Source: Eggerthella sinensis
GTDB lineage: Bacteria > Actinomycetota > Coriobacteriia > Coriobacteriales > Eggerthellaceae
Assembly: GCF_003339815.1 (NCBI RefSeq)
Contig: NZ_PPTT01000005.1
Span: 124,001-188,000 of the forward strand
DNA: 64,000 bases
Direction of reading: 5' to 3'
The position numbers were made by a program, and so were the translations under genes. Below are positions 15,248-51,524 of this stretch, one piece after another. How positions within the stretch are numbered: the first letter of the stretch is position 1; every line of letters starts with the position of its first letter. Under the pieces are notes generated by a model. That model saw nothing but the letters and a program-made list of their open reading frames with translations. It was not told where the DNA came from and did no database searches.

Positions 15248-16282
15248 TCAATGCTGCCAAGCCTCTAAAAGACGCTGTTTCTCATCGGCATCTGTGATAC
15301 CCGTCATATCCGCGTACTCGATATTCTCGGGATAGTTGTCGATGTGGGCGGTGTACGCTTTGAGAACCTGATCGGGAACGTAAGCTTGATTGTCAATCTT
15401 GACACCTTCAGTTGCAAGCCAGGCGAACACGTCTCGTACAGCAGTCTTCTCGCTTTTCCCTTCCACAATGCCAACACCGTACACCGCCCACGGAGCGCCC
15501 TCTTCGAAAAAATGAACCGTAATTGGGGCCCCTTGGTTGATTTCGGAGACTGCCTGGAACGTCATGCCGAAGCCTATGAGCGCCTCCCCTTGGACAAGCG
15601 CATTAACCGGGCCGGAGCCCGATGACGAGAACTGATATACGTTCTCGGCGAGCCTGTCGAAATACGCCATCGCTTCTTCCTCGCCCCAAGCGTTTACAAG
15701 GCTCTTCACGAAATTGTATCCCGTACCCGACGTCTTGGGATTGGGCATGCAGATAAGACCTTCATATTGCGGATCAAGCAGATCTTCGTAGCTTTGGGGA
15801 ATATCAAGACCACGAGCAAGCAGCCCCTCTTCGTTCATGGCGATGCAGGCAGATTCTCGGGCGAAGGGAAAGAACGTTCCATCCTCGTCGAGGAGGTCAT
15901 CGCAGTACACGCTTGAGTCGAACGAGGAAAGATCTTCGAGGCACTCCGACAGCTGCTTGATATAGCCGCCTTCAAGATCAAGCACGATATCGGCTTCGGA
16001 TTGCGCGCCTTCGATCTTGAGCTTTGCAGCGCAATTGCCCGTCGGCACGTAGCGCATACGAATATCGTAGTCGGGAAACCGTTCGTGCAAAGCGGCGAGC
16101 AGCGCTTCGTTCCGCACGCCCTCCGCACATGAGTATACGACGACGGTATCGTCGCCATCCGTTGCGAATCCAAAGCTTTTGGCACCGATTCCTATCACCG
16201 TTATCAACAAAAGCACAAGCGTGACCGCAATCGCGATAGCCTTCGCCGCATATCCCCGTAGAGTGTTCAAATCTTCTCCCAT
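15248..16282 (-). CDS. Extracellular solute-binding protein, orphan paralogue of the 26.8-27.9 kb lipoprotein
   Basis: A type-2 periplasmic-binding-fold protein of about 344 residues (PotD/FutA/PhnS-like). From TVVVYSCAEGVRNEALL onward it aligns along its whole length with the binding protein at 26840-27859, sharing for example ENVYQFSSSGSGPVNALVQ. The N-terminal hydrophobic helix (VTLVLLLITVIGIGAKSFGF) has no lipobox Cys, so it is probably membrane-anchored or secreted rather than lipidated. No permease or ATPase is adjacent, so it may serve the transporter at 24.4-26.9 kb. The start is uncertain: ATG at 16282, or TTG at 16270 with GGGAG upstream. A 36-bp operator lies 57 bp upstream. Confidence 0.85.
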   Translation of the reverse strand: MGEDLNTLRGYAAKAIAIAVTLVLLLITVIGIGAKSFGFATDGDDTVVVYSCAEGVRNEALLAALHERFPDYDIRMRYVPTGNCAAKLKIEGAQSEADIVLDLEGGYIKQLSECLEDLSSFDSSVYCDDLLDEDGTFFPFARESACIAMNEEGLLARGLDIPQSYEDLLDPQYEGLICMPNPKTSGTGYNFVKSLVNAWGEEEAMAYFDRLAENVYQFSSSGSGPVNALVQGEALIGFGMTFQAVSEINQGAPITVHFFEEGAPWAVYGVGIVEGKSEKTAVRDVFAWLATEGVKIDNQAYVPDQVLKAYTAHIDNYPENIEYADMTGITDADEKQRLLEAWQH

Positions 16283-16338: not shown

Positions 16339-16374
16339 TGTTCATTATTGTAAAGTTTAATTGATAATTGAACA
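16339..16374. promoter_or_regulatory. Inverted repeat TGTTCA-N24-TGAACA, operator copy 1
   Basis: The 36-bp element lies in an A+T-rich stretch upstream of the orphan binding-protein gene. TGTTCA (16339-16344) and TGAACA (16369-16374) are 24 bp apart. The same arms at identical spacing occur at 23370 and 27890. The inner bases also keep partial symmetry. Confidence 0.75.
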
Positions 16375-20266: not shown

Positions 20267-21517
20267 TTACACCGTTACGGGCTCCCCCTCAGGTTCGAGC
20301 ATCGCCGCATCTTGCTCCTGCACAGCATCAAGCCGCTCAAGCTCTTCCGCTTTCTTCACCGCGAGCAAGCTCGCAAACACCACTGCACAAATGCCGGCGG
20401 TCAACTTGCCAAGCAAGACAGGCACAATGAGCGTGGGCTGAAAATTCGCCGTGAAAGACAAATGGTCGCCGAACAGGAACGCGCAGCATACAGCAAACGA
20501 CATAACCAACACCTTATCGCGCGCTTTGAGATCCTTCACCATCGACAACGCCGCCAACACGTTCGCAGAAGCAGCGAGCAAGCCGGCCGTTGCATCCGAG
20601 CTCAGCCCAACCGCACCGCCGATCTTGGCCAAGGGCTTCGCCAGGTAACGCTTGATGAGATACACCATCGGAAACGCGCCGCACAGCATCATGCCGATAG
20701 CTCCCGATACTTCGAGCGCGCGGAATATATCATCTTCGTCCGCGATGATGGGATCAAACCCGAATGAGCCGAACACCATCGAAAAGACCCCGGTAAAGTA
20801 CTCGACAACTGCCAGCACAAAAACGATTTTCAGCGCCGCCTCCATCACGCGGCCGAACACGATAAAACCCTTGATCATAGCATCGGGTTTGAACTTCAAT
20901 CCGAGCGCAAGCGCAAGGCAGATGATAACGAGCGGGACGAGATTAACGCCTATCTGCGCGAAGCTCAATGCAAGCTGATACGTAGCCTCAGCGTTGGTAG
21001 ACACCACCTCACGAATCATCGGCTGAGAGAAGGCGATGATGACGCTTGCCACAAGCACGCCAATAGGAATAGCCAGCAAGCCGCTCATGACACCGAGAGC
21101 AAGATACTTTCGATCCCGTTTCACCAGCATCTTGAGCGCCACCGGAATGGTGAACACGATAGTAGCCCCAGCCATGTATCCGGTCATCATTGCCATGATC
21201 CAGCTCTCCCTCGTCTGAGCAAGAGCATCGGCCAATTGATAACCGCCCATATCGATGGCGATGAACGTGGTAGCGGCCATCGCAGGATCGGCCCCCAAAG
21301 CCCCATACGCAGGACCGAACACTGAGCTGACGAACGCCGTCAGATAAGGCGCTGACGCCATGATACCCGCAACCGGCAGGAAGATAGGGCCGATAGAGTC
21401 GATGCCCGCCACAAATTCCTTGCCCAGTTCGCTTTCAGGCTTCAGCGCCGAAGCAACTGCCCCCACCAACGCGCAGGCCATGATGACATACACCACGACC
21501 GTTCCAATCATTTCCAT
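20267..21517 (-). CDS. eutH: EutH-family ethanolamine permease
   Basis: A 416-residue integral membrane protein of the EutH family, with about ten membrane segments. Diagnostic stretches are GIDSIGPIFLPVAGIMAS, IAIDMGGYQLADALAQT, GLSSDATAGLLAASANVLA and FGDHLSFTANFQP. EutH proteins transport or facilitate ethanolamine. No other eut genes are nearby. It is 26 bases downstream of an HTH-nucleotidyltransferase-kinase gene, so here it probably feeds surface decoration rather than ethanolamine catabolism. Choline is a possible alternative substrate. ATG at 21517 follows GGGAGGG. Confidence 0.88.
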   Translation of the reverse strand: MEMIGTVVVYVIMACALVGAVASALKPESELGKEFVAGIDSIGPIFLPVAGIMASAPYLTAFVSSVFGPAYGALGADPAMAATTFIAIDMGGYQLADALAQTRESWIMAMMTGYMAGATIVFTIPVALKMLVKRDRKYLALGVMSGLLAIPIGVLVASVIIAFSQPMIREVVSTNAEATYQLALSFAQIGVNLVPLVIICLALALGLKFKPDAMIKGFIVFGRVMEAALKIVFVLAVVEYFTGVFSMVFGSFGFDPIIADEDDIFRALEVSGAIGMMLCGAFPMVYLIKRYLAKPLAKIGGAVGLSSDATAGLLAASANVLAALSMVKDLKARDKVLVMSFAVCCAFLFGDHLSFTANFQPTLIVPVLLGKLTAGICAVVFASLLAVKKAEELERLDAVQEQDAAMLEPEGEPVTV

Positions 21518-21543: not shown

Positions 21544-23316
21544 TTAATTCGAATGAACATCGTATAGAGGTAACGCTTTCGCGGAATACGCCCGGACGGA
21601 GCGATACCACAGATACAGCCATTCCCCAACAGGATCTCCCGCAGACTCCTTATACAGCGCCCATACGAACCAGTAATAGGCAGCCAAAGCGACGTAGGCA
21701 AGACAGTGACGACGCTCATCCCTCGTCGGCTTGCGACCGAAATAGGTTGCGATAACCCGCTCTGCATCTTCGAAGTCGTAATCGGAACAGCAGATGAACG
21801 TTCCGAGGTCAGAAGCATAATCGGACATAGCCGAATACTCCCAATCGATTAGACTCATCTCGTCGCCCTTGACGAGAAAATTCGGACTGTAAAAGTCGTT
21901 ATGGCAGAGGCAGTATGCCACATTATCTCGCCCGACGAGATCATTGAGCTGCGAAGCCTTCTCATTGATCTCGTCAAAGTCAGGGAATGACGGATAGGAC
22001 CGTTTACTCAACAGGCCGACAAGCTCCTGAGCCTTGTCGTACACCCCAAACTCCCATTCCGAAGTCTCTCCGCTTTCATGCAGCTTCTTGATAAGCGACA
22101 AAGCGCGCGTCACCTGTCCCCAATTGTGGTAATCGAACGGTACGCAGTCCTCCATGTAATTCGACAGCTTCCAACCGGCAATAGGATCTTGATAGACGAA
22201 TGTTTCGTCGATTCCCAACTTTTTCGCAATCGTTTGAGAGTACGCTTCGCTTGCGCGGTTGATAATCTCGCTCGTTCCCAACCCAGGATGTCGATACACG
22301 TACGAAGTTTCACCAATAGAAAATTTGAACGATAGGTTCGTAAGGCCCTCTTTGATAGGCACGACGCCTTCGATCTCGCTGCGTTCGCATCGCAACGTGC
22401 GACATATATTGTCGAGAATTTTGGAGTCGACGTTCATGAGAAAATCTTGATCGAACTGCTTGAGATCAGAAAGCGAGTCGAACTCATATATAACGCCCGC
22501 CTCGTAGGGGCGCAACACCATCCTCAGCTCTTTGAGATGATCGCGGTAGATATCCTCCCATAGCTTTGGCGCCGTATCCGGCAAACGGTACTCCCTCTCG
22601 AGAAGCTCGGAAAACGTCTGGGAAAACGCATGGTCGAAGTAAGCGTGTCCAAGCATGCCATACGAATCAGACCCTCCAACCGTGACGCCTACGATACGAT
22701 CGTCACGCCCCGTCCTCATACAGTATTCGTCCGTAGGGCCCTCGAAAAACATGCCGGCATAGTACGCTTCATACACATACGGCTCGAACACGTTTTCGGT
22801 AAAATAATCGTCGGAAGAGCAGATATACGTATTTCCCAGCTGCTCGCGCACCAGCATGAGCGTGGAATTGTTATTGCGGGTTGCGTATTCCTCATTAACC
22901 AGGATCTTGACGCCCATCGCATCTTCCAAATAGAAGAACGCTTCTTTCATATACCCAACAACAAGCGTGATATCGTCAATGCCGGCTTCTAACAACTGCC
23001 GTATCTGACGCTCAATAAGCACCTCGCCCCGAACAGTAAGCACCCCTTTCGGCTTTTCATACGAAAGAGGAGCGAATCGCGACGACAATCCCGCAGCCAT
23101 GATTATCGCATTCTCAACCTTGTAAGGAGCAAGAGCCTCATAACCTTCGGCCGTGAGGTAGAACCCGTCCATAAGCCCTCGTTCGCGGAGAACCTGGCAC
23201 AAACGGTTCACCGATCCCAACGAAAGACCTGTCGCCTCAGCAAGAGCCCGCTGCGTGTAGAGGTTTTCGTCCATCAAAGCAATCAGAACCTTGAACTCGT
23301 TTTTCTCCAATGACAC
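21544..23316 (-). CDS. HTH - LicC-like nucleotidyltransferase - LicA-like kinase fusion
   Basis: A 590-residue three-domain protein. Residues about 1-70 form a winged helix (TQRALAEATGLSLGSVNRL). Residues about 75-300 form a nucleotidyltransferase with the loop IIMAAGLSSRFAPL and EKPKGVLTVRGEVLIER, like CTP:phosphocholine cytidylyltransferase LicC. Residues about 310-585 are a choline/ethanolamine-kinase fold with the catalytic CHNDFYSPNFLV and the metal-binding LIDWEYS. It would phosphorylate and then nucleotide-activate choline, ethanolamine or a similar compound, and may also sense it through the HTH. GTG at 23316 is chosen; upstream in-frame ATGs fall inside the operator. The layout matches NadR, but the enzymes differ. 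Confidence 0.87.
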   Translation of the reverse strand: MSLEKNEFKVLIALMDENLYTQRALAEATGLSLGSVNRLCQVLRERGLMDGFYLTAEGYEALAPYKVENAIIMAAGLSSRFAPLSYEKPKGVLTVRGEVLIERQIRQLLEAGIDDITLVVGYMKEAFFYLEDAMGVKILVNEEYATRNNNSTLMLVREQLGNTYICSSDDYFTENVFEPYVYEAYYAGMFFEGPTDEYCMRTGRDDRIVGVTVGGSDSYGMLGHAYFDHAFSQTFSELLEREYRLPDTAPKLWEDIYRDHLKELRMVLRPYEAGVIYEFDSLSDLKQFDQDFLMNVDSKILDNICRTLRCERSEIEGVVPIKEGLTNLSFKFSIGETSYVYRHPGLGTSEIINRASEAYSQTIAKKLGIDETFVYQDPIAGWKLSNYMEDCVPFDYHNWGQVTRALSLIKKLHESGETSEWEFGVYDKAQELVGLLSKRSYPSFPDFDEINEKASQLNDLVGRDNVAYCLCHNDFYSPNFLVKGDEMSLIDWEYSAMSDYASDLGTFICCSDYDFEDAERVIATYFGRKPTRDERRHCLAYVALAAYYWFVWALYKESAGDPVGEWLYLWYRSVRAYSAKALPLYDVHSN

Positions 23317-23369
23317 GGAAACCCCCCACCGTAGCGAATAATGACCACGAGGTGAGATTGTAGTTGCAT

Positions 23370-23405
23370 TGTTCATTCTTGTAAAGCTTATGCAAAGAAT
23401 GAACA
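23370..23405. promoter_or_regulatory. Inverted repeat TGTTCA-N24-TGAACA, operator copy 2
   Basis: This copy has the longest symmetry: 12-bp arms (TTGTTCATTCTT / AAGAATGAACAA, 23369-23406) around a centre containing AAGCTT. It lies 54 bp upstream of the GTG of the three-domain gene. The spacing between the TGTTCA and TGAACA arms is identical to the other two copies. Confidence 0.8.
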
Positions 23406-23479
23406 ACTGAATTCAATTCTACTTATCAAGGGAGGTTCTGATGCTCAATTTAGTAATTATCCCGTTAACATTGAACTCT

Positions 23480-24376
23480 TTATACGTACGCCTTATCGAG
23501 CTCCTGCAACTCGCGATACGTATCGATCTCAATCACGTCATCAAACGTGCACTCACGCACTGAGACTTCGTAATTACGCGCAAAGTAACGCAAGGCCACT
23601 TCGTCCCAATAGCGTTCCTTACCGCCCGGCATCGCGAACGTCGAAGCGACGTCTTCGGACAGCTTCTTTCCGTCTTCTTCGGTCCAGTACGATATGCCAA
23701 ACATATGATGACAATCCGTACCACCCACCGACAACCCCGTAATGACACCGCGGCGCGTCTGAAAACACCAGTCATCGGTAACAGGCACCGGAACTCCGAG
23801 GTAGTTCGACGAGTATTGGTACTTCGTGATGAGTTTCGGGTTGTACAACAACAGATCCGACTCGAACACGTAGGTGTTCTGCAGCAGGTCTTTGGCAACC
23901 ACGGCCGACGAGATATTGTTCGCTTCGTTGTAGAACGGATTCTCGATAAACTTGATTTGAGGATACTTATACAGTAGCTGATCGAATTGCTCGGCCAAAT
24001 ACCCGCGCACCACGTACACTTCCTCAATACCCGCAGCACATACCGCATCGAGCAGTGAATCAATGATACGCTGACCGTGCACGCGGATGAGCGGTTTCGG
24101 CGTGTTTAACGTAATAGGAACAAGACGCGACCCGAATCCGGCGGCGATAAGCACCGCACGTCTGACTCGATACGGTTCAAGCGCTTCAAGACCCAAAGCA
24201 GACAAGGTACCCTCGCGTACGAATCCGCGCTCGTGCAAATCGGCCATAGCTCGGTTGACGGTGCCAACCGACAAGTCAGCCGCAGCAGCAATTTCCCGCT
24301 GTGTGAGCGTCTCATCAACGCGAGCCTCGAGCGCAGTTAGTATCTTGAAATCCTTCATGTCGAGCGAACGAGACAT
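23480..24376 (-). CDS. HTH - LicC-like nucleotidyltransferase
   Basis: A 298-residue protein. The N-terminal winged helix (about 1-70, TQREIAAAADLSVGTVNRAM) resembles that of the gene at 21544. It is followed by a nucleotidyltransferase domain (about 78-298) with VLIAAGFGSRLVPI and TPKPLIRVHGQRIIDSLL. There is no kinase domain. It probably activates a phosphorylated amino-alcohol or phosphonate with CTP for LicD-type transfer. ATG at 24376 has AAGGAGG eight bases upstream. It ends the ABC-transporter operon, 36 bases after the permease. Confidence 0.87.
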   Translation of the reverse strand: MSRSLDMKDFKILTALEARVDETLTQREIAAAADLSVGTVNRAMADLHERGFVREGTLSALGLEALEPYRVRRAVLIAAGFGSRLVPITLNTPKPLIRVHGQRIIDSLLDAVCAAGIEEVYVVRGYLAEQFDQLLYKYPQIKFIENPFYNEANNISSAVVAKDLLQNTYVFESDLLLYNPKLITKYQYSSNYLGVPVPVTDDWCFQTRRGVITGLSVGGTDCHHMFGISYWTEEDGKKLSEDVASTFAMPGGKERYWDEVALRYFARNYEVSVRECTFDDVIEIDTYRELQELDKAYV

Positions 24377-24412
24377 GCGTGAATCCTCCTTCATTAGGAA
24401 AGCGCCTCGCGC

Positions 24413-26014
24413 CTAGACCGCAGAAGCAGTCGGCGAACCGGCACGATGCATTGCTTTTTTCACGCCTGCAAGTATGAGCTTGAAGGCGATGTTCGTTATC
24501 AAAATCAGGAGCGACACAAACGCGGCGCACTCTGTCAAACGCTGCGCATCAAGATCGGTAATAAGCAGCGCGAGCGGCATATCGAGCGTTGTGGACAAAA
24601 ATGCCACAGCAGAGATGGTAACCATACAGTTGACGAAGAAGTAACCTACCATCTCGACGATCGTGTCCTTCGTCTGCGGGATGAGCACGTCTTTCAGTAT
24701 ACTCCCTCGGCTGATACCCATCGTCGATCCAACCGCTTCCAGATTCTCGTTCACCTTGCCAAGCGAGTTGTACGCCATAAGATAGGGCGATGCAAAGAAG
24801 TGAATGAGGTTCGCCAAAATAAGGATGGCAAACGTCCCGTATAGAATGGACCCCTTAAAGAATAAGACGTACGACAAACCGAGGACGATACCGGGGATAG
24901 CAAGCGTGGTAATGCACACGAGGTGCAGCAGTTTCGCAAAACGCCCTCCCATACGCGCCGTAATATAGGCGGCAAAATAGGCAAGCGTCGTACCTAAAAG
25001 CGCAACCGCGCACGCAATGATAATCGAGTTCACCCAATAATCACCCACGTTCAAGTTCATCGCTCGTCCGATGTTGTCCAGTGTCACGGTGAGATCGATC
25101 GGATATTTCTGGACGAACGACACCAAGACAAACGAGCCGAGCGGCAGAATAATGGCCACCGAAGCCACCAGCCCAACGACGTATCCGAGCGCATCGCGCG
25201 CAACATTGCGCTTGATGTCGAACGCTTTCGAAACGAACGATGACTTTCCCTTATCCGCATTAAGCACATCGACGAGAAAGGCGACGATCGCAGGAATGAG
25301 CAGCACGAAGCCAATAGCCACACCTGTATTGTAATTGAGCAAACCGATAACTTCCTGGTACATGAGCACCGGAAGCGTTGTTGTCTTTCCGCCCACCATG
25401 AGCGGCACGCCGTAGTCGGTAACCACAAGCGTAAACGTAGCGAACACCGCCGAAATCAGCGGCTTGCGCAAATAGGGCAACGTGATGCTGAGAAATTGAT
25501 TGATCTTCGGAATGCCCAGCACGTCAGCAGCCTCATAAGGAGATGCGTCTTCGTACTTAAGCACATCGTAAAGCAGCAAAAAAGCAGAGGGGAACGAGTA
25601 CAACACCGACCCCATGACGATGCCCCAGAACCCGTAGAGGGAAAAATCAAGGCCCAAAGCATTCGTGATTATGCCGTTCGATCCCAGCAAGAACACGAGC
25701 CCCATGCCAAGCGCGAGCGACGGAATAAGCATAGGGAGCGTCATAATCACGGCAATAGCACTTTTGGCGCGGATATTCGTCCGACATAGCACCCACGACA
25801 TAGCAAGCGCCAGCACAAGCGATATGACCGTCGAAGTGAGGGACACGCCAATGGAGTTGAGGCAGGCGATTCTAAACTGCTCCGTGCCGAAAACCGCAGA
25901 CGCTCCCGGACTTGCAAGCTGGGAGAACATTCCCAACAGTGGCAGCACCGCCGCCACGAGGAAGAACACGGCCAGCACAATGCGCGTGAGGTTGAGCTTA
26001 CCCTTCCGTTTCAC
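24413..26014 (-). CDS. ABC importer permease, fused double-length form
   Basis: A 533-residue permease with about twelve membrane segments and two BPD-transporter repeats. The coupling loops are YEAADVLGIPKINQFLSITLP in the first half and LEAVGSTMGISRGSILKDVLIP in the second. This fused arrangement occurs in FbpB/ThiP/2-aminoethylphosphonate-type importers. It works with the ATPase at 26022 and the lipoprotein at 26840. GTG at 26014 starts seven bases after the ATPase stop. The substrate is probably the compound activated by the downstream nucleotidyltransferases. Confidence 0.92.
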   Translation of the reverse strand: MKRKGKLNLTRIVLAVFFLVAAVLPLLGMFSQLASPGASAVFGTEQFRIACLNSIGVSLTSTVISLVLALAMSWVLCRTNIRAKSAIAVIMTLPMLIPSLALGMGLVFLLGSNGIITNALGLDFSLYGFWGIVMGSVLYSFPSAFLLLYDVLKYEDASPYEAADVLGIPKINQFLSITLPYLRKPLISAVFATFTLVVTDYGVPLMVGGKTTTLPVLMYQEVIGLLNYNTGVAIGFVLLIPAIVAFLVDVLNADKGKSSFVSKAFDIKRNVARDALGYVVGLVASVAIILPLGSFVLVSFVQKYPIDLTVTLDNIGRAMNLNVGDYWVNSIIIACAVALLGTTLAYFAAYITARMGGRFAKLLHLVCITTLAIPGIVLGLSYVLFFKGSILYGTFAILILANLIHFFASPYLMAYNSLGKVNENLEAVGSTMGISRGSILKDVLIPQTKDTIVEMVGYFFVNCMVTISAVAFLSTTLDMPLALLITDLDAQRLTECAAFVSLLILITNIAFKLILAGVKKAMHRAGSPTASAV

Positions 26015-26021
26015 AACCGGC

Positions 26022-26837
<816 letters not shown>

Positions 26838-26839
26838 CG

Positions 26840-27859
26840 TCAGTACTTCCATTTCTCAAGCAGCCGCTTCTTCTCGTCGATATCGAACACCCCGTCCATA
26901 TTCGCGTAATGAGTGTCCTGAGGATAGTTCGGTATCTCCGTATGCTGGTCGACGAACACTTTGTCAGGTACGAACTCCTGCTTGTCGAGCAATATGCCCG
27001 TGTCGTACATCCAGTCCATCACCGCGCGTACAGCCGGCTTATCCTGCTTTCCGTCCACAACGGCGACGCCGTTCATGGTCCAGGGCGAACCCTCTTCAAA
27101 GAAAAGGACCTCTATGGGTACGCCTTTGTTAATTTCCGACACCGCTTGGTACGTCAAGCCGAACCCGATGAGCGCCTCACCTTGCACAAGCGCATTAACC
27201 GGGCCCGACCCCGAAGACGAGAATTGATAGACATTTTCGGCAAGCTTATCGAAGTATTCAAACGCCGCATCTTCGCCGCGCGTGTTCACAAGACTCTTCA
27301 CGAAATTGTATCCCGTTCCCGACGATTTCGGATTAGCCATGCTAATCAAACCGCGGTATGAGGGATCGAGAAGGTCATCATAGGTTTCGGGAATGGCAAT
27401 ACCGCGTGCAGCGAGCTCCCCCACGTTTACGGCCACGCATGCACTCTCTCGCCTAAACGGCAAGTACGTCGAGGTTCCATCAAGCAAGTCGGATTCAAAT
27501 GCATCCAGATCGTATGATGTGAGCTGCGCGAGGCTTGATTGGATCTGCCTCAAATAGCCGCCCTCCAGCATGAGCACGATGTCGGCTTCGCTTGAGGTTC
27601 CCTCGTTTTGCAGCTTCGCCGCACATGTTCCCGTGGATACGTAGTGCAAACGTATATCGTAGTCCGGCAAGTCGCGGTGCATGGCTTCGAGCAAAAGCTC
27701 GTTGGCCTCTCCTTCACCGCACGAATAGATGACAACGGTATTGTCGTTCGCAGAACTGCAACCGGGCAATGCCAACGACACCAACGCTCCAGCCGCGACC
27801 GCCACAAACGATCGCCGCGTCATCCCCCGTCTCGTCACCACTGCCCTCCTCGTTTTCAT
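26840..27859 (-). CDS. ABC importer substrate-binding lipoprotein
   Basis: A 339-residue type-2 binding protein. The N-terminus has a twin-arginine-like TRRSFVAVAAG followed by the lipobox LALPGC, so it is a membrane-anchored lipoprotein and may use the Tat route. The fold and family resemble 2-aminoethylphosphonate, spermidine or iron-binding proteins. It is the first gene of SBP-ATPase-permease-HTH/nucleotidyltransferase. The gene at 15248 is its close paralogue. A 36-bp operator lies 31 bp upstream. Confidence 0.9.
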   Translation of the reverse strand: MKTRRAVVTRRGMTRRSFVAVAAGALVSLALPGCSSANDNTVVIYSCGEGEANELLLEAMHRDLPDYDIRLHYVSTGTCAAKLQNEGTSSEADIVLMLEGGYLRQIQSSLAQLTSYDLDAFESDLLDGTSTYLPFRRESACVAVNVGELAARGIAIPETYDDLLDPSYRGLISMANPKSSGTGYNFVKSLVNTRGEDAAFEYFDKLAENVYQFSSSGSGPVNALVQGEALIGFGLTYQAVSEINKGVPIEVLFFEEGSPWTMNGVAVVDGKQDKPAVRAVMDWMYDTGILLDKQEFVPDKVFVDQHTEIPNYPQDTHYANMDGVFDIDEKKRLLEKWKY

Positions 27860-27889: not shown

Positions 27890-27925
27890 TGTTCATTTAA
27901 GTTCAAGATAATGTAAAATTGAACA
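27890..27925. promoter_or_regulatory. Inverted repeat TGTTCA-N24-TGAACA, operator copy 3
   Basis: TGTTCA (27890-27895) and TGAACA (27920-27925) lie between the licD stop and the start of the binding-lipoprotein gene. The 24-bp spacing equals that of copies 1 and 2. Confidence 0.75.
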
Positions 27926-27957: not shown

Positions 27958-28791
27958 CTACTGGACGTCGAACCCCAACTCTATAGGAGCATGCTGTCGT
28001 CGCTCGTCCATAGGGGGAAGTTCGCGCCAGTCGCCGAACATGATCTCGAGGTAGCGTTCTATCTCGGCAGGAACCGGAAACTCCTCCCCTTCGAACATGT
28101 GACGCCCCGCGGGAACAAGCACGTTCGTCGGGTAGCTGCCAATGGCCACATACGACATGCACATGCTCGTATCACCCGGACTGTCTTCGCCCGCGAGCGC
28201 GGATTGCTGGAATTGCCCGGCCAAACGCTCATGACTGGTAAAGACCCTGAGAAAGGCGTGCGCAACACCGCATGCCGCACGCTCGAATGAACCGAGCGCT
28301 CCCTTGTGGGGAACCACCACATTCTTGGAATGGTAGAGATACAGCAGTTTCTGAAGCAGAGAACACCGCTGCCGCTGCTTCTGCGCGACGCGTTCATCAG
28401 CCGACAGCACATCGTAGGGCAAGATGTCGATACCAATCCCTTGACGCAGACCCGCATCAAGGGTTTCGACGGTATAGAACTTCGTTCCCCTCAGCCACAC
28501 CTTCGCAAACATTGCAGAATGGATCGCGTTCGTCATTGGCTCGGAAAGCACGTACTGCTCGCCAAGAGCTTCGGGCGCGACGGAGAGAAACCGCTCGTAA
28601 TCCGCACGCATCATGCCCACGTCAATGTCGTCGTCCCAAGGAATGAAGCCATCGTGGCGAGCGGCGCCCAATGCCGAACCAGAATCGAGAAAGTACGCAA
28701 TATCGTGTTCTCGGCACACGCGATCAACCTCTTTTAGAATGCCGAGCTCCATAAACTGCATCTTTCGCAGGGTTTCGTCATCGTAACGCAT
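27958..28791 (-). CDS. licD: LicD-family phosphotransferase (first copy)
   Basis: A 277-residue LicD protein. LicD enzymes transfer phosphocholine or a related group from a CDP-donor to surface glycans or teichoic acid. The diagnostic nucleotidyltransferase-like core is YFLDSGSALGAARHDGFIPWDDDIDVGM near residues 36-65. ATG at 28791 has GGAG six bases upstream. It lies 98 bases upstream of the importer operon in the same direction, with an operator in between, so import and transfer are physically linked. Confidence 0.92.
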   Translation of the reverse strand: MRYDDETLRKMQFMELGILKEVDRVCREHDIAYFLDSGSALGAARHDGFIPWDDDIDVGMMRADYERFLSVAPEALGEQYVLSEPMTNAIHSAMFAKVWLRGTKFYTVETLDAGLRQGIGIDILPYDVLSADERVAQKQRQRCSLLQKLLYLYHSKNVVVPHKGALGSFERAACGVAHAFLRVFTSHERLAGQFQQSALAGEDSPGDTSMCMSYVAIGSYPTNVLVPAGRHMFEGEEFPVPAEIERYLEIMFGDWRELPPMDERRQHAPIELGFDVQ

Positions 28792-28851
28792 GCATCTCTC
28801 CGTAGTTATCAAATCATCATTGTTTGCAGCAGAAGCATATCTTCGCAATAG

Positions 28852-28857
28852 TATACA
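28852..28857 (+). promoter_or_regulatory. Predicted -10 element of the GT2 gene at 28867
   Basis: TATACA ends nine bases before the ATG at 28867, so transcription would begin within about three bases of the start codon, as for the gene at 16493. No clear -35 hexamer or ribosome site is visible. Confidence 0.4.
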
Positions 28858-28866
28858 ATACCCTTC

Positions 28867-29652
28867 ATGACAAAAAACTGGAAAGAAAGTTCCCGAACTG
28901 CTATGTCTAACAGAGAATCGCAAGTTCAGAGCCCGGATGGAATACTCGACGAGCGTTGCAGCGACATGATTGAGCGAACGCTCATCGTAATACCCGCCTA
29001 CAATGAAGAGAGTTCGCTTTTGGGAACTCTCGACGAGTTGTTATCGACCATACCCACGTGTCACTACCTCGTTGTGAACGACGGATCAAGGGATGGCACC
29101 GAGGCTATTTGTCGCGAACAGGGCTTCAATCACATCAGCCTTCCCGTGAATGTCGGCTTGTCGGGGGCATTCCAAGCGGGCATCAAGTTCGCATACGAAA
29201 ACGGCTACGACTTCGTTTTGCAGTTCGATGCGGACGGGCAACATGACCCGCGCTTCATTCCGAGCATTCTCCAACAAGCAGCCGATCACGATATCGTTAT
29301 CGGATCGCGCTTCGTTACGGAGAAAAAACCTTTTTCGCTTCGAATGGTCGGCAGCGCCCTCATCACAACCGCAATACGCATGACATCGGGCGTGCACCTT
29401 AAGGACCCTACATCAGGCATGCGCCTCTTCGGTAAAAAATCCATGCGCGCATTCGCCAACGACAGCAACTGCGGCCCTGAACCAGACACCCTCGCCTACT
29501 TCATCAAAAAGAAGGAAGCATCGGTGGTCGAAGTTCCCGTAACCATGAGGGATCGCATGGCAGGAACGAGCTACCTCAACGCCAAAGCTGCCATCCTCTA
29601 CATGCTTCGCATGACGGTGTCTATCGTGATCATCCAGCCTTTCCGTAGGTAA
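28867..29652 (+). CDS. Glycosyltransferase family 2, polyprenyl-phosphate sugar synthase-like
   Basis: A 261-residue GT-A enzyme. LIVIPAYNEESSLLGTL starts the fold, VVNDGSRDGT holds the nucleotide-binding acids and FDADGQHDP is the metal motif. The length and MRLFGKKSMRAFA resemble dolichyl/undecaprenyl-phosphate sugar synthases without C-terminal membrane segments. It would make a lipid-linked sugar donor. The start is uncertain: ATG at 28867 fits a possibly leaderless transcript, while ATGs at 28903 and 28969 are closer to the conserved domain. It is followed by a small DUF2304 membrane protein and a GT4 in one operon. Confidence 0.88.
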   Translation: MTKNWKESSRTAMSNRESQVQSPDGILDERCSDMIERTLIVIPAYNEESSLLGTLDELLSTIPTCHYLVVNDGSRDGTEAICREQGFNHISLPVNVGLSGAFQAGIKFAYENGYDFVLQFDADGQHDPRFIPSILQQAADHDIVIGSRFVTEKKPFSLRMVGSALITTAIRMTSGVHLKDPTSGMRLFGKKSMRAFANDSNCGPEPDTLAYFIKKKEASVVEVPVTMRDRMAGTSYLNAKAAILYMLRMTVSIVIIQPFRR

Positions 29653-32498: not shown

Positions 32499-33383
32499 TT
32501 ACGCCTCAGCGTACTCGCCGAAATCCAGGATATCCGGATAATGCTCGCGTCGCTGATCTAATGGCGGAGGAGTCATGAAGTCACCATATAAAGACTCCAA
32601 CAACTTCTCCGCATGGCGAGCAACGGGAACCATCATGTCCTCGAATACCACCATTCGCACAGGAAACAAGTCCTCCCGATCGTACACACAAGAAAACCTA
32701 TCGGTCTCGCACAAGAAACCTATACGTCGCGTCTGAACCCCGTTAAAGCGCGTCTGTTCGCGAAGCGATAACTCGTTGAAGTCGAGCGAGCGAAGGCCAG
32801 GAAGCTTGAGAAGCCCCCGCATGCCGAACGTCCCCGCGCGCAACATCAAAGCGCGTGCGCCACCGCCGCCAATATAGGGGCTCTTTACCAGTTTCGTGAT
32901 CGATAGCTTATTGCACAACCATGCACGCCATGCCTGCTTACGGAAGGCCTTCTCGTCATCTGCGAGGCTATCGAGAGGGAATAGGTCGAGGAAAATGCAT
33001 GACTCGAAGTCGGCTGTTTGAAGCGCCGCGTCTCGAAATTCAGTACCGTTCAGCATCAGACGCGTCGTTGCCATTGGATAGTTCGCGTTCGTCTGCGAAT
33101 TCATCACACTGTATCGACCGGAAGCGTCTTCCTGCATGATCCGAACAAACGTTTCGAGGTCTTCCCGGGGCATACAGATGTCAAGATCGTCATCCCAGGG
33201 AATAAACCCTTTCTCCCGCACCGCGCCCAAAGCTGTTCCGAACGCCACAAACCAACGAAGGTTGTGAAGTTCACACACCGCAGAGAAATCCTTGAGCATT
33301 CCCAAGAGCACGCGATGGAGCTTTTCCAGCCGCTCATCACGCTGCTGGTCTTGCCCTTCTTCCCATTCACTCACTTTTGACAC
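32499..33383 (-). CDS. licD: LicD-family phosphotransferase (second copy)
   Basis: A 294-residue LicD protein. The core reads WFVAFGTALGAVREKGFIPWDDDLDICMPRED. It is clearly divergent from the first copy apart from this motif. It probably transfers a second phospho-substituent, or the same one to another acceptor. It lies between a large membrane protein and the flippase. GTG at 33383 has GAGAGGAAG upstream; a second in-frame GTG lies three codons in. Confidence 0.9.
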   Translation of the reverse strand: MSKVSEWEEGQDQQRDERLEKLHRVLLGMLKDFSAVCELHNLRWFVAFGTALGAVREKGFIPWDDDLDICMPREDLETFVRIMQEDASGRYSVMNSQTNANYPMATTRLMLNGTEFRDAALQTADFESCIFLDLFPLDSLADDEKAFRKQAWRAWLCNKLSITKLVKSPYIGGGGARALMLRAGTFGMRGLLKLPGLRSLDFNELSLREQTRFNGVQTRRIGFLCETDRFSCVYDREDLFPVRMVVFEDMMVPVARHAEKLLESLYGDFMTPPPLDQRREHYPDILDFGEYAEA

Positions 33384-42126: not shown

Positions 42127-44166
42127 TCAGCTCCGGCCACGGGAAACCTTTAACCCCATGCGTTTCGCAAATCGATCAGCATACGATCCATCGCTGCAAA
42201 CAAGTACCACCTTCTCGCTTCCGACAAATGCATCATCTTCTATTTGCGCAATCGAATCAGGAAGCCTTACCGCCGTAAGGTTATGACAATACGCAAAGGC
42301 GCGTTGACCAATATGCACACACCCATCAGCGACAAATACAGTTTCCAACTTCGCACAAGAATTGAAAGCACTCCTCTCTATTATGCGAAGCGATGGAGGG
42401 GTTTCGATTCTTTCTATTTGATTAGCTTGATAGAAAGCCGCATATCCAATATTTCGAAGCGTTGAAGGGAACTGTACGCTTTTCGTATACGCGCTGCCCT
42501 CGAAAGCGGCCCGTGCTATGTTGGTGACCGCCCGTCCCTCAATTGTCTCGGGAATCGCAACATCGCAACAGGAAGCAAGCTTTCCTCGCACTGTTGCATG
42601 ATCCGTGTAAACAAAGTAGCGCAGCACATCGTCGCGAAACTCGCCCGACCTAAACTCATAGCGCTCGAACTCTTCGTGAAACGCGGTTCCAAAAACCCTA
42701 TCCACTGCAAGCTCAAGCTTCATGCCGTGGCTGCCCTTGACCATGAGAACGTCATTCACGGATACGTGCTTCTCCATCAAAGAAATCAGTTCGTCGAAGC
42801 ATTCGGTATGCGCAACGCAAGTCGCATTGCCAAGCCGAGCGGCATCCGCAATGTGGCGACTTGCCGAACCGTAACATATGAGCTTTTCAATTTTTGATCG
42901 TGCGACCATTTCCCCAACGCGTCGATGAAATAATGCTTCCTCCTCGCCCGTCTCAAGCATATCCGCCAGCACGGCAACCCGGTGGCCCCCTTCGGGAACG
43001 CCCACCATCTCAAAAGCATCAAAGGCGCTCTGCATGCTCTCGGGCGAAGCATTGTAGCAATCAAGGTATATCGAATGCCCGCCATACCGTACCAAATTCT
43101 GCCGGATGCCTGAAGGTCGATAAGATGCAAGGCCAAAAACGATTTCTTCATCAGTCATATCAGCCCAAACGCCGGCAGCGAAAACCGCAAGAGCGTTAAG
43201 CACATTGTGCCTTCCAAAGCAGTTCAGCGTCACTGCAACAACTTTGTCTTCATAGAGGACATCGAATGCAAGACGCGATCCATCACTACGTATATTGGCC
43301 GCTCGATAATCGCATTCTTCATTATCTATGCCATAGTACACAACGCTACGAGAACACGAAACTCCCCACTGGAAAGGATCGTCGCCATTAAGTATCATCA
43401 ATCCCTCACCGGTAGGCATTCCTTCTTGAACGCTTAGACAGCTATCGAGGATCCTCTCCTGCGTTCCAAACGCCTCCAAATGGGAAGAACCCACCAGCGT
43501 CACAATCGCAGCTTGCGGCTGAACCACTTTGGCGATAACACCAGCAGCGCAATACGGAGGACCCTCCATCGTTTCCTGCACGTAGTACATATGCTCCGGT
43601 TTGAGACGCTGAACCACCCCTCCGGCAAGACGGAGATTATTAGCGCTACTATCATTGCAATGAGCAGGATACTTGCTTTTCAAAACCGCCGCAGCCATCT
43701 GGGTAGTTGTCGTTTTGCCAATACTTCCCGTAACGCTTAGCGTTTTCGGACGAAAACGAGCGCGAACGCTCGAGCAAATCAGGCAATACGCTTCAACCGG
43801 ATCAGGATACAGCAGGCATGGATAGTCCTTTATCTGGAAGGGCGCGATTAGCAAAGCAGCCCCTCTGGCTATCGCCACATCAGCAAGCTCTACGCATCTC
43901 TCTGGCGAAGTGTAGGTGTTCGGAACAGATGTATTGACCGTAATGACAGCTACGCCTCCAGGCTGAACATCATGTGCAAAATACACACGCGTGTATGTAC
44001 TGTCAGAACCGCTGATCGGCAATTTGAGTATTTCGCATATCCAAAACTTCGTCAAAATCGAGAACTCAGACGAATAGTTCGCAACCGACGCATCCTGAAA
44101 AGATACCGTCTCACGAGATTCCAACACGTACCCTCCTAGCGCACTAATCTTGACATTGCATTGCAA
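42127..44166 (-). CDS. Mur-ligase (MurF-like) fused to BspA-type leucine-rich repeats
   Basis: A 679-residue protein. Residues about 50-130 resemble a MurF N-terminal region, 140-330 a Mur central ATPase domain (VTGSIGKTTTTQM P-loop; NALAVFAAG) and 345-480 a Mur C-terminal domain (GGHSIYLDCYNASPESM, DVLMVKGSHGMKLELAV). Residues about 540-660 hold LRR_5/BspA repeats (FEGSAYTKSVQFPSTLRNIGYAAFY-type units). Mur ligases form amide bonds with amino acids using ATP. The leucine-rich part is normally extracellular, so its presence on a cytosolic ligase is unusual. It is four bases after an ATP-grasp gene. A role in polymer aminoacylation is inferred. The ribosome site is weak. Confidence 0.82.
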   Translation of the reverse strand: MQCNVKISALGGYVLESRETVSFQDASVANYSSEFSILTKFWICEILKLPISGSDSTYTRVYFAHDVQPGGVAVITVNTSVPNTYTSPERCVELADVAIARGAALLIAPFQIKDYPCLLYPDPVEAYCLICSSVRARFRPKTLSVTGSIGKTTTTQMAAAVLKSKYPAHCNDSSANNLRLAGGVVQRLKPEHMYYVQETMEGPPYCAAGVIAKVVQPQAAIVTLVGSSHLEAFGTQERILDSCLSVQEGMPTGEGLMILNGDDPFQWGVSCSRSVVYYGIDNEECDYRAANIRSDGSRLAFDVLYEDKVVAVTLNCFGRHNVLNALAVFAAGVWADMTDEEIVFGLASYRPSGIRQNLVRYGGHSIYLDCYNASPESMQSAFDAFEMVGVPEGGHRVAVLADMLETGEEEALFHRRVGEMVARSKIEKLICYGSASRHIADAARLGNATCVAHTECFDELISLMEKHVSVNDVLMVKGSHGMKLELAVDRVFGTAFHEEFERYEFRSGEFRDDVLRYFVYTDHATVRGKLASCCDVAIPETIEGRAVTNIARAAFEGSAYTKSVQFPSTLRNIGYAAFYQANQIERIETPPSLRIIERSAFNSCAKLETVFVADGCVHIGQRAFAYCHNLTAVRLPDSIAQIEDDAFVGSEKVVLVCSDGSYADRFAKRMGLKVSRGRS

Positions 44167-44169
44167 CGC

Positions 44170-46383
44170 TTACCATGTATCCAGGTGATACGCTTCCGCT
44201 TTCAATCGCATCTTATCCCTAAAGTATTCCCTGAATTCATCCGAATGCTCATAAACCTTATGAAGGTCTTGATGAATATTTATTTCTAGTATCTTGAAGC
44301 CGTCATCGGTAATAGCAATATCGAATCCCAGATACTCGAGTTCGGGCATAAAAGAGCAAACGCTCTTCACTTCTTCACACATGTAGCTCCAATTCGGGAC
44401 AATACCCTTGATCCGCACTCCCGTATCCGGGTGAACCGGACACGGAACAAATACATGGTCCACAATTCGCTCTGGACAGTAATACTCCCCCGTGTCGATA
44501 TCGACCTTTGCGCAAATGCCTCCGTAACCTACATTGTCCGTAAATCCAGTACTCGAAGACCCAATGCGCATATACGTTTGCATGATTTTTGGCTCGAAAC
44601 CTGATTGATTCACTACCGCAACTCGAATGGTGTTAACCGAGTGAGGATAAATTCTGCGCAATTCTTCATGCAGGAAGAGGTACTCGGTGACAATGTAATA
44701 AGAATTGAAGCCGCGAATCATTTCTTCAATATCCGCTTCGCTCTTCTCTTCCCCGTTAACCAGATATCGGCAGCCTGCATACTCAAGACGATAAAAGCCA
44801 TCACCATGAGTGCCCGAGGAGGGCTTCAGCGCCAATAATCCTTTTGCTTGCAACAAGGAAAAGAGATCAGCGAACGTGGCGCCCATCCCATCCGGTGCGT
44901 CTTGAAGCGTTTTCAGGCACGTCTCGCCTTCCATTTTGATAATAATGTAATAGTACTCCGCCAAAAGATGCTTATAGGGCTCCAGGACATAGCGTGTTGT
45001 CGTCTTATCGTTTACCCAAATTTGAAAACGATTGTTGATTCTGTTCAACCAATGATATTGATAATCCGATATGTATGTCCGATAGGTTTCCTCGGTCAAA
45101 TGATATTGTTCTATTCGAAAGGACTGGAATCCGCGGCGCCAGCACCATAGTTTCTGCCTTAAGGTCGTACTTTTGGTATTGTGAAAATCTGATTTAACGG
45201 CATCGAACCATAATTTCTGCATGTACGGTCGCACGCCAGAGCGACATAGCTTTCTAATGAGACGATTCTCATGCCTCGTCTTAATGGTGTGCCAATCGTA
45301 CGAGGCATCCACCTCGAATAGTTCGTGCTTCTTTTTCGCCCTGTTCATGAGATATTCATTGAGCTCTTGGCTGTGTTCCACAAGAGGCAAGGTGGGATTC
45401 GCGGAGAACGAATATACGACAAATGAATCTTTTGTCGGAATAAGATAAACGGTAAAGAATTCTATCTCGCTAATATACGAGGCCATCCCCTTCACAGCCT
45501 CAACCATATCAGACCAGTGAGGAACCGAGCGGCCATCGCACACACCCTCAGCTGAAATCGGAGCATACACCAAACCAGAATCCTGCCCTCGATCCAAAAC
45601 GTACGCATCCAGTATCTCCGTTTTAGCCAAACGCTCATTTGCAACGTAAAGCTTAACGACGCCGCTGAACCCCGAAGCCTGCTCGAAGTAATCACAAATG
45701 ACGTGACCGTATTCAAACTTCGAAAACAACTCATGTAGATCGCTTTTGGTGTAGAGAGGAGACTCATCTTCTGCACTCAACAGCGCCATTCGATCATAGT
45801 GATACCCGAATATCCTAAACCACTCACTTCCGATTGGATCACTCTTCAATGCAAACTGATCGCCACCAACGTGCTCAACAAGATAGCTGCAACGCCGCCT
45901 CGACGGTGCTGTCGGTCGAACGACCAGCTTCCCTCGTTTCTCAAGCAACTCGACAAAAGCGTCGTACCCCTCCCCGACACTCCTGTTAAGCGTGTCGGAG
46001 GGAAGAAAAATGTTCTCATGCTCTCTTCGAATGATGTTGAAGTAAAGCCGAGGAAGGAACATTGAATACCGTGCGAGAATATGCTCTATCGTGACCAGAT
46101 CACCGATCCATTTTGAAAAACTATTGTTGAACGGCTGCAGGAACAGGTAATCCAGATCGCTAATTACCCTATCGGAATTCCGTTTGAGATCGTATTTTTC
46201 AATACTTTCGTAGAGAAAACCGCGCTCATGCGCCCATTCCATGTCTTTGCGATTCTCGGCAGAAACGCTCGCTTCATCGACAAGCACTTTTTTGTACCAT
46301 GAATTCGCCAAGCGCCTCGAGCATCCCCGCTTTCTCCATGAGGCAATGAAACGCTCTTTTTTAAGTCTTCCGATCGGGTTCAT
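44170..46383 (-). CDS. Tandem sugar-transfer-associated ATP-grasp protein, degenerate N-half
   Basis: A 737-residue protein made of two copies of an ATPgrasp_ST-like domain (about 1-365 and 375-737). Each half begins with a WAHERGF or WRRGF-type helix and a Y-x-WL-x-IN segment. The C-half keeps an ATP-grasp loop (LALKPSSGTHGDGFYRLEY) and the metal-binding EINIHQDLHK. In the N-half these read VVRPTAPSRRRCSYLVEH and VYSFSANPTL, so it is probably inactive and structural. The family is found in polysaccharide loci, but its reaction is not established; ATP-grasp folds usually make amide or thioester bonds. It lies between two related genes. Confidence 0.8.
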   Translation of the reverse strand: MNPIGRLKKERFIASWRKRGCSRRLANSWYKKVLVDEASVSAENRKDMEWAHERGFLYESIEKYDLKRNSDRVISDLDYLFLQPFNNSFSKWIGDLVTIEHILARYSMFLPRLYFNIIRREHENIFLPSDTLNRSVGEGYDAFVELLEKRGKLVVRPTAPSRRRCSYLVEHVGGDQFALKSDPIGSEWFRIFGYHYDRMALLSAEDESPLYTKSDLHELFSKFEYGHVICDYFEQASGFSGVVKLYVANERLAKTEILDAYVLDRGQDSGLVYAPISAEGVCDGRSVPHWSDMVEAVKGMASYISEIEFFTVYLIPTKDSFVVYSFSANPTLPLVEHSQELNEYLMNRAKKKHELFEVDASYDWHTIKTRHENRLIRKLCRSGVRPYMQKLWFDAVKSDFHNTKSTTLRQKLWCWRRGFQSFRIEQYHLTEETYRTYISDYQYHWLNRINNRFQIWVNDKTTTRYVLEPYKHLLAEYYYIIIKMEGETCLKTLQDAPDGMGATFADLFSLLQAKGLLALKPSSGTHGDGFYRLEYAGCRYLVNGEEKSEADIEEMIRGFNSYYIVTEYLFLHEELRRIYPHSVNTIRVAVVNQSGFEPKIMQTYMRIGSSSTGFTDNVGYGGICAKVDIDTGEYYCPERIVDHVFVPCPVHPDTGVRIKGIVPNWSYMCEEVKSVCSFMPELEYLGFDIAITDDGFKILEINIHQDLHKVYEHSDEFREYFRDKMRLKAEAYHLDTW

Positions 46384-46423
46384 ATCTTCTTCCTGTTCGC
46401 TCCGCTTGCGACGAGCTATCGTC

Positions 46424-48646: not shown

Positions 48647-48684
48647 GAAACCCGAAACGCATCAGCCTGCCCGCATGAAACGAA

Positions 48685-49659
48685 TCACTCACAAAAAAGC
48701 CCTCTCGCTTCTCTGAAAGAGCGGATTCGCTCATCCTGAATGCGACCTCCCCTGATAACGGTCGCCTCCTGAACGTTGCCAGGGTATTCCCCCTCTATCA
48801 TGATGTCGATGTATTTCGAAATTCCCGAGCTCAGAGTTTTAGTAACAGTAATGGGGTACATTGCGGGCGTGTTGTCAACCGCGTAATGGATTACCCCATC
48901 CACTTCATATACGGGGTCCTCAATTGTCGTCGCACGCGTTGTCTCAACTTCAAGACCTGGGTCGCAACTGATATCAATGATCATCGTACCAGTCTTCATT
49001 TTAGAGAGGTCTTCTCGATAGATTATTCTGTCCGTACGGTTTGTATCCCACATAACACAATTAACGAGAACGTCATAATCGAACATATTTTTACGGAAAA
49101 GCTTCTCCAACCTTCTAGGATACACGTCCACCTCCGCACCAAGCCCGTGGAGAATGCGCATTGCCCCCTTCGCCGTCTGGCCATTGCCCAAAATCGCAAC
49201 ACGTGTATCATAGGGCATTTTCCCGCAGTACATATACGCCTGCAACACACCCGCTTCGCCAGCAATCTCTCTGTTTCTGTAAAAAATGTATCGACCGTCC
49301 TCGAATATCTCTTCCCATGCAACCACCGTATGAGACCCCTTGATCACGGAGCTGGTAAAGTCGAGGGACTGCACGGCATGCGCCCACCCGAACAGGACTT
49401 TTCCATCCTCAATGTCGTCGAGATAATCAGCATCGCCCAACTTGACATCGGTGATGATATCGCATGCGAGGCACTCTTCCCGAGATACGATATGAGCTCC
49501 CAAACTTGCATAATCCTCATCCGAAAACCCGACCGATTCCCCATACCCCTGCTCGAAGTAGAGCGAATCCCTATGCTTTATCGACTGGAAATCGGTCGGA
49601 ATAAGAGCTCGTCTCTTCTCACCGCATTTGTGGCTCTTAACGAATCCCATCGTCTTCAT
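48685..49659 (-). CDS. N5-(carboxyethyl)ornithine synthase homologue
   Basis: A 324-residue protein of the alanine dehydrogenase/PNT fold. It begins MGFVKSHKCGEKRRALIPTD and has the NAD(P)-binding GNGQTAKGAMRILHGLGAEVDVY and the C-terminal VDNTPAMYPITVTKTLSSGISKY, all typical of carboxyethylornithine synthase. That enzyme condenses pyruvate with the side-chain amine of ornithine or lysine and reduces the product with NADPH. Here it is surrounded by ATP-grasp ligases, so it may make an amino-acid substituent for the wall polymer. ATG at 49659 follows GGGAGG by eight bases. Confidence 0.87.
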   Translation of the reverse strand: MKTMGFVKSHKCGEKRRALIPTDFQSIKHRDSLYFEQGYGESVGFSDEDYASLGAHIVSREECLACDIITDVKLGDADYLDDIEDGKVLFGWAHAVQSLDFTSSVIKGSHTVVAWEEIFEDGRYIFYRNREIAGEAGVLQAYMYCGKMPYDTRVAILGNGQTAKGAMRILHGLGAEVDVYPRRLEKLFRKNMFDYDVLVNCVMWDTNRTDRIIYREDLSKMKTGTMIIDISCDPGLEVETTRATTIEDPVYEVDGVIHYAVDNTPAMYPITVTKTLSSGISKYIDIMIEGEYPGNVQEATVIRGGRIQDERIRSFREARGLFCE

Positions 49660-49736
49660 AATCAAAACCTCCCAAAATTGCGCTAGTATGCCCACGCCAA
49701 CAAGCTCGGCGCATCAACACGTACTTATTCTTCGAT

Positions 49737-50285
49737 TCAATTCTTCGATTCGTGACGGAGAACGAAACTGTCGTAGTCCTCAGGGCAATTGAAATCCATC
49801 GTTTCATCGGATACGATGCAAAAACCGCCTCCGATCTCGCGGCCCTCGAGCGGCATTTCATTGTACAGATGATACACTTGCCAGCCTTTCGCATCGTCTA
49901 TCTCCCTCGCTACTATCTTCCCGCGAAGAATCTCAATGCATTGCCGAAGAATGGCGCCTCGTTTTACTCTCACCGCATAGATCGATGTCGCGCTTCCCCA
50001 GAAAAGCATTCCTTCACACGGTGTGCTCAGAATGCTCTCCATGACTTCGTTCGTGTAGAACACATCGCCGTACAAGAAACATGTTTCGTCTTCAATTAAT
50101 TCAAAGCAAAATCGATCCAACTCGTATGCGTCCCGCTCGGGAGAATGCCGACGCGCTTGCGGGATTTCATACCGCTCATCCGAAGAGGATATAACCACCT
50201 CTGCTTCAGGATTGAGCTCTTTGACCAATCTCACCGTCCGTTCGAGAAGCGTCTCGCCATCGACGACCGAAAGATGTTTCGGCAC
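49737..50285 (-). CDS. Sugar-nucleotidyltransferase-like protein, abnormal start
   Basis: A nucleotidyltransferase of at least 182 residues with PKHLSVVDGETLLERTVRLV, CFLYGDVFYTN and a C-terminal ETMDFNCPEDY. From the GTG at 50285 it lacks the glycine-rich nucleotide loop. That loop is encoded in the same frame directly upstream (KLSNGFRGSRWGNYRSV, about 50333-50286), inside the end of the preceding ATP-grasp gene, but no ATG, GTG or TTG is available there. The true start may be a rare codon such as ATT near 50354, or a frame change is involved. It overlaps the ATP-grasp gene by 55 bases. Confidence 0.72.
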   Translation of the reverse strand: MPKHLSVVDGETLLERTVRLVKELNPEAEVVISSSDERYEIPQARRHSPERDAYELDRFCFELIEDETCFLYGDVFYTNEVMESILSTPCEGMLFWGSATSIYAVRVKRGAILRQCIEILRGKIVAREIDDAKGWQVYHLYNEMPLEGREIGGGFCIVSDETMDFNCPEDYDSFVLRHESKN

Positions 50286-51520: not shown

Positions 51521-51524
51521 AGTT

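Follow-up and report, generated by a model that had tools for sequence, protein, structure and literature searches.

HTH-LicCA of Eggerthella sinensis, a winged-helix, cytidylyltransferase and kinase fusion, is a candidate trigger enzyme for aminoalcohol uptake

Can a single protein activate the aminoalcohol head groups of surface glycans and also set their uptake? The question is raised by an open reading frame in a 64,000-nucleotide stretch of Eggerthella sinensis DNA (hereafter, the window) that joins a DNA-binding head to two enzyme domains of the lic type. NadR and BirA are textbook trigger enzymes, and to our knowledge few such enzymes are known. The term covers metabolic enzymes with DNA-binding ability, and a published list includes BirA, PutA, and PepA (PMC8249747). 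On the basis of the sequence comparisons below, we consider it likely that the fusion, here called HTH-LicCA, acts as a trigger enzyme, regulating its own operon and repressing related uptake operons. The gene and its DNA-binding head are located as follows.

21544..23316, minus strand: HTH-LicCA open reading frame, 590 aa, a single polypeptide (winged helix, residues 1–66; LicC-type cytidylyltransferase, ~67–295; LicA-type choline/ethanolamine kinase, ~300–590)
23116..23316, minus strand: winged-helix DNA-binding domain of HTH-LicCA (recognition helix, residues 33–45, motif LSLGSVNR)

The start codon is GTG at 23316, preceded by a G-rich Shine-Dalgarno-like run; a TTG further upstream, at 23406, was rejected as a merely mechanical start. 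Matches over the Pfam gathering scores were HTH_24 (E = 9.7e-8, 31.9 bits against a cut-off of 21.9), NTP_transf_3 (3e-9) and NTP_transferase (2.1e-7) in the nucleotidyltransferase part, and Choline_kinase (1.4e-13) and APH (6.4e-10) in the kinase part. By sequence, the PDB entries for LicC (1jyk) and LicA (4r77) matched residues 69–290 (E = 5.7e-38) and 305–575 (E = 1.6e-23), respectively, and Foldseek gave TM scores to target of 0.87 and 0.82 for the same two structures. The AlphaFold2 model had a mean pLDDT of 85.5, with residues 1–70 at ~87–96 per block. Structure prediction of this N-terminal segment had been set beforehand as the test that could refute a DNA-binding head, and it returned a confident winged helix at residues 1–66, with helices at 5–13, 22–29, and 33–45, a short wing at 48–53, and a helix at 56–65. 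Modelled by itself, the winged helix reached a pLDDT of 91.2, and its Foldseek matches, at a probability of 1.00 and a TM score (query) of ~0.8 with modest E-values of at least 0.013, were winged helices of the MarR type and of CggR; the three helices, wing, and recognition helix of MarR/CggR-like winged-helix regulators are all present.

In a first alignment, G76, R80, K90, and D169, which mark a LicC-type cytidylyltransferase domain, were invariant in 15/15 homologues, as were H472, D474, N479, and D491 of the kinase. Y494 of the kinase is also invariant, and this domain combines a kinase fold with the HxDxxxxN and IDWEY motifs of the LicA type. Because these catalytic residues do not vary among the 15 homologues in either enzyme domain, both activities are probably intact. 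The original prediction, that a winged helix and LicC-like and LicA-like domains share one chain, was confirmed by Pfam cut-offs, PDB matches, confident folds, and conserved catalytic residues.

Treponema denticola LicCA, a cytidylyltransferase fused to a choline kinase, shares this enzyme pairing with HTH-LicCA. The pneumococcal LicA/LicB/LicC/LicD system is alike in its LicC and LicA domains, in the LicD genes nearby, and in the LicB of sister loci; however, pneumococcal LicA and LicC are separate and without a DNA-binding domain, and EutH replaces LicB at the E. sinensis locus. The order of HTH, nucleotidyltransferase, and kinase in one chain is that of NadR of Enterobacterales, to which the trifunctional form is confined, and which comprises an HTH (1–57), an NMN-AT (58–227), and an RNam kinase (228–410), makes NAD, controls uptake and synthesis genes of its own pathway, and represses in response to NAD and ATP (PMC12421817). 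HTH-LicCA differs in its enzyme domains, which match LicC and LicA and not a HIGH-type NMN adenylyltransferase or a P-loop ribosylnicotinamide kinase, in its predicted product, a CDP-aminoalcohol, and in its wide TGTTCA-N24/25-TGAACA site. A NadR-like order of functions built from different enzyme families had indeed been proposed for this protein, and is borne out by the Pfam, NCBIfam, and PDB matches. BirA too has an N-terminal winged helix (1bia, a weak match to the HTH-LicCA N-terminus, E = 0.93), but Pfam and NCBIfam scans found no biotin-protein ligase domain in HTH-LicCA, and the enzymes, pathways, and operators of BirA, PutA, and PepA are unrelated to its own. PntC-AEPT (6pd1) has a related cytidylyltransferase domain, for 2-aminoethylphosphonate (PMC6697681), but fused to a transaminase and with neither an HTH nor a kinase. 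The best reading is that HTH-LicCA functions like NadR or BirA and is a member of neither family. Its parts are known; in the open-access literature searched we found no description of the family, of its combination with a DNA-binding head, operator, and transporter regulon, or of a comparable characterized regulator, in agreement with the earlier expectation that no regulator of this kind had been characterized.

HTH-LicCA is the first gene of an operon shared with EutH. The minus-strand order is LicD (27958–28923), PhnS2-, PhnT2-, and PhnU2-like genes, HTH-NT, HTH-LicCA, and EutH, and two further genes of interest flank this series.

32499..33383, minus strand: second LicD-family phosphotransferase (PF04991, 3.2e-35)
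27958..28923, minus strand: LicD-family phosphotransferase (PF04991, 2.5e-34)
26840..27859, minus strand: PhnS2-like solute-binding protein (TIGR03261, 173 bits, under the cut-off of 393)
26022..26852, minus strand: PhnT2-like ABC ATPase (TIGR03265, 298 bits, under the cut-off of 458)
24413..26014, minus strand: PhnU2-like fused ABC permease (TIGR03262, 386 bits, under the cut-off of 593)
23480..24394, minus strand: HTH-NT, a paralogue with a winged helix and a LicC-type nucleotidyltransferase, without the kinase
20267..21517, minus strand: EutH ethanolamine permease (probable start ATG 21517; 26 bp after HTH-LicCA)
15248..16282, minus strand: second PhnS2-like solute-binding protein (probable start ATG 16282)

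Matches to PF04346 at E = 2.9e-122 (408.7 bits, cut-off 25) and to NF011668 at 663.9 bits (cut-off 575) place EutH unambiguously in the ethanolamine permease family. HTH-NT is the last gene of the PhnS2/T2/U2-like ABC-transporter operon (27859 down to 23480), and its recognition helix is near-identical to that of HTH-LicCA (LSVGTVNR vs LSLGSVNR). The three transporter genes all score under their NCBIfam equivalog cut-offs and do not qualify as the PhnS2/T2/U2 2-aminoethylphosphonate transporter. The LicD-family phosphotransferase at 27958–28923 is a probable user of the activated aminoalcohol.

If HTH-LicCA is a regulator, where might it bind? A 36-bp repeat had been reported at this locus, and it proved real: the palindrome TGTTCATT-N20-AATGAACA has three copies at one mismatch or fewer in the whole 4.0-Mb genome, each in the promoter of one of the three transcription units of the HTH-LicCA locus.

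27890..27925, minus strand: candidate operator before the PhnS2/T2/U2-HTH-NT operon, over TTGAAC-18-TACCAT
23370..23405, minus strand: candidate operator TGTTCATTCTTTGCATAAGCTTTACAAGAATGAACA before HTH-LicCA
23357..23385, minus strand: predicted sigma-70 promoter TTTACA-17-TACAAT of HTH-LicCA
16339..16374, minus strand: candidate operator before the second PhnS2-like solute-binding protein, over TTTACA-17-TATGAT

The promoters, as read from the sequence, overlap all three sites alike, with the downstream half-site TGAACA within the -35/-10 spacer. A trigger enzyme is expected to have candidate operators both before its own gene and before genes of its pathway, and both placements are found here. 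Together with the conservation described next, they support the original suggestion that the fusion could regulate its own uptake genes, and likewise regulation of its own operon; the EutH gene that follows, the paralogue without a kinase, the conservation of the operator in other genera, and the operator-promoter overlap go beyond that suggestion.

The palindromes might instead be chance features of a low-GC island, lying beside an ordinary LicCA enzyme and its transporters, and an AT-rich island with AT-rich promoters does raise the number of chance palindromes. However, TGTTCR-N24/25-YGAACA (one mismatch or fewer, within 250 bp) was present at 31/39 distinct promoters of winged-helix-bearing homologues, with 21 exact, whereas in dinucleotide-preserving shuffles of the same 39 promoters an average of 0.26, and never more than 3, had a site; many of the compared promoters are related, and both the shuffle and the Fisher figures overstate independence. 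A dyad scan without a preset motif ranked TGTTCA first, with a spacer of 25 (13 promoters) or 24 (6). Among the exact matches listed, 44 had a spacer that we class as AT-rich (<45% GC, with the limit picked after inspection); all 44 lie in family-bearing genomes, 32 of them directly upstream of a family gene, and such spacers were seen for 0/37 matches in family-less genomes, where all were GC-rich; nine genomes had been added for carrying the family, which enriches the family-side count and leaves 0/37 unaffected. The GC-rich exact matches were rejected as sites, being mostly the same sequences recurring between species, like conserved coding DNA. Two genomes of the same genus (G202 and G068) have exactly three AT-rich sites each, at their lic locus. 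The site was present for 44/59 genes with an intact S-L-G-x-V-N helix vs 3/17 with an altered or missing helix (Fisher p = 3.5e-5, relatedness ignored). Given the shuffles, a site sequence and spacing common to several genera and phyla, the confinement of AT-rich sites to family-bearing genomes among the listed matches, and this covariation of helix and site, we regard a chance origin as highly improbable.

Fifteen intact-helix genes are without a nearby site, including most Clostridia copies. Among all Coriobacteriia genes without a nearby site, L009 (helix intact) and the L042/L112 locus (helix altered) have a site at the operon start, and in L112 a permease is the first gene of the operon that the site heads. 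In L104, one site precedes an NCS1-type permease on another contig than the HTH-LicCA gene, a placement expected for a trans-acting regulator. A pairing of S32G/A in the helix with TGTTCG half-sites was seen in L008, L121, and the second copy of L015, but L012 copy 1 and L037 run counter to it; it was rejected as a rule and amounts to a hint. Extra HTH-LicCA copies with a decayed recognition helix and no operator (the L117 second copy, L109 14247–16112, and L043) look as if the enzyme had been kept and regulation lost. Separately, nucleotidyltransferase and class-V aminotransferase pairs that are PntC/AEPT-like (L109:2512–4667 and L006:12211–14043) have the operator motif in front.

Another protein could be the binder. 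HTH-NT, with its closely similar helix motif, sits in one of the three site-bearing operons and could be binder or co-binder; alternatively, an unrelated regulator might occupy the sites, with the winged helix of HTH-LicCA a scaffold or oligomerization element that has no regulatory role. Kinase-bearing copies without a winged helix do exist, as second copies. However, at the locus level the site precedes HTH-LicCA in L003, L005, and L014 with no HTH-NT nearby, and site presence tracks both the helix integrity of HTH-LicCA and the presence of its family. Moreover, few stretches of the otherwise variable winged-helix domain are as conserved as the recognition helix, which speaks against a scaffold. 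We therefore consider binding by another protein improbable and favor HTH-LicCA itself. Operator conservation and the covariation of helix and site are strong, though indirect, evidence that its own DNA-binding activity would control transcription.

We infer the DNA binding, oligomeric state, repression, and ligand of HTH-LicCA, and propose the following scheme. After import, ethanolamine (in sister subfamilies, choline) would be phosphorylated by the LicA-type kinase; the LicC domain would convert the product to its CDP derivative, and LicD enzymes would decorate surface glycans with its head group. Acting in a dimer or a larger oligomer, the winged helix would bind TGTTCA-N24/25-TGAACA sites overlapping the -35/-10 region; half-sites ~30 bp apart would require two winged helices far apart, for example in a tetramer or in a dimer whose subunits are long. 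Site occupancy would block RNA polymerase, so that its own operon (HTH-LicCA and the aminoalcohol permease) and related uptake operons would be repressed. Occupancy of the catalytic domains probably alters DNA affinity. In the likeliest scheme, build-up of the CDP product would favor repression and uptake would fall, by the logic of NadR and BirA; the main alternative would be substrate-induced release from DNA.

The same protein-DNA interaction might instead activate, or both activate and repress, with the substrate as inducer. Activators can sit where one of the half-sites is found, upstream of the -35 element, and the AT-rich spacer could help bending. Nevertheless, the site covers both the -35 element and the spacer, the -35 elements are near consensus, and the distance from site to start codon varies from 4 to >100 bp between species, which is easier to reconcile with occlusion than with an activator contact at a fixed position. 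From the overlap with near-consensus -35 elements and this loose distance we infer repression; activation seems unlikely to us, though less so than another binder.

Which aminoalcohol is handled here? EutB is absent from the genome, and ethanolamine catabolism was rejected as the role of EutH on this ground; because there is no EutB in the genome, EutH is probably non-catabolic. The EutH partner and the absence of EutB favor ethanolamine as the substrate of HTH-LicCA. Choline or another aminoalcohol is a doubtful alternative, on a par with activation. Pneumococcal LicC and LicA are choline enzymes, and the LicA pocket aromatics Tyr197, Trp251, Trp254, and Tyr268 are aromatic in HTH-LicCA too (Y494, W549, W552, and W566). 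On the other hand, the transporter in the operon is EutH, the LicB-linked relatives, which probably use choline, mostly form a clade of their own and differ in pocket signature, and our search of this genome found no choline-binding repeats, in contrast to G136 and G168, LicB-type genomes in which choline-binding cell-wall proteins adjoin the HTH-LicCA locus. The LicA pocket was rejected as a means of telling choline from ethanolamine, because its aromatic positions are retained and the residue at the LicA Glu213 position is Cys in EutH-linked copies and variable elsewhere. For the kinase-less HTH-NT beside the PhnS2/T2/U2-like genes, aminoethylphosphonate is a possible substrate; a suitable substrate for such an operon, in which the activating enzyme carries no kinase, would be an aminoalcohol that is a phosphonate or already phosphorylated. 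Own synthesis of aminoethylphosphonate was rejected, as the search for it gave no PEP mutase match over the cut-off.

The HTH-LicCA family was found in 104/298 sampled Coriobacteriia genomes (51/125 genera) and in 16/391 sampled genomes of the class of a Ruminococcaceae relative. The Ruminococcaceae genome has a single exact motif occurrence, at its HTH-LicCA family gene, and in Clostridia the full site is present at some copies (L129 and L131) and absent at others. The permeases paired with HTH-LicCA copies are EutH, LicB (7b0k, 5e-32), NCS1-type, and amino-acid permeases. LicB-linked rows fall into one well-supported clade in 9/11 cases and mostly have one distinct kinase pocket signature, and transporter labels change 13 times on the tree vs 25.2 for shuffles. 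We are evenly divided on whether these proteins amount to a family of trigger enzymes for aminoalcohols, widespread across Coriobacteriia and extending to some Clostridia. In such a family, one protein would sense its own two-step CDP-ethanolamine/CDP-choline reaction and set head-group uptake via a conserved 36–37 bp operator, and the EutH, LicB, NCS1, and amino-acid permease copies would serve as parallel channels of differing specificity that share one operator type. If so, host-derived surface head groups would be set by a one-protein feedback loop. Ethanolamine and choline head groups on the surface are important to host recognition and to choline-binding proteins of the cell wall. HTH-LicCA would add to the known trigger enzymes one that serves the decoration of surface glycans in gut actinobacteria and has a defined operator, and it would explain how envelope ethanolamine and choline are tuned in these bacteria. 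The shared operator and helix would offer a simple rule to find the regulon in new genomes.

Beside LicB-type HTH-LicCA loci of gut actinobacteria, we also observed choline-binding-repeat proteins (amidase, YkuD, and metallo-beta-lactamase-like; L102:6973–10029, L105:7495–11728, and L106:4018–5799). In the window itself, GC drops from ~0.65 to 0.46–0.55 over a large surface-glycan region (~20000–55000), which suggests an acquired island. In an odd fusion, the open reading frame at 42127–44166 (minus strand) combines BspA-type leucine-rich repeats with the middle and C-terminal domains of a Mur ligase. Lastly, three open reading frames at 44170–51574 (minus strand), adjoining Mur-ligase-like and TagF-like genes, carry sugar-transfer-associated ATP-grasp domains; two of the three are ~740 aa long, with their sole Pfam match in the C-terminal half.
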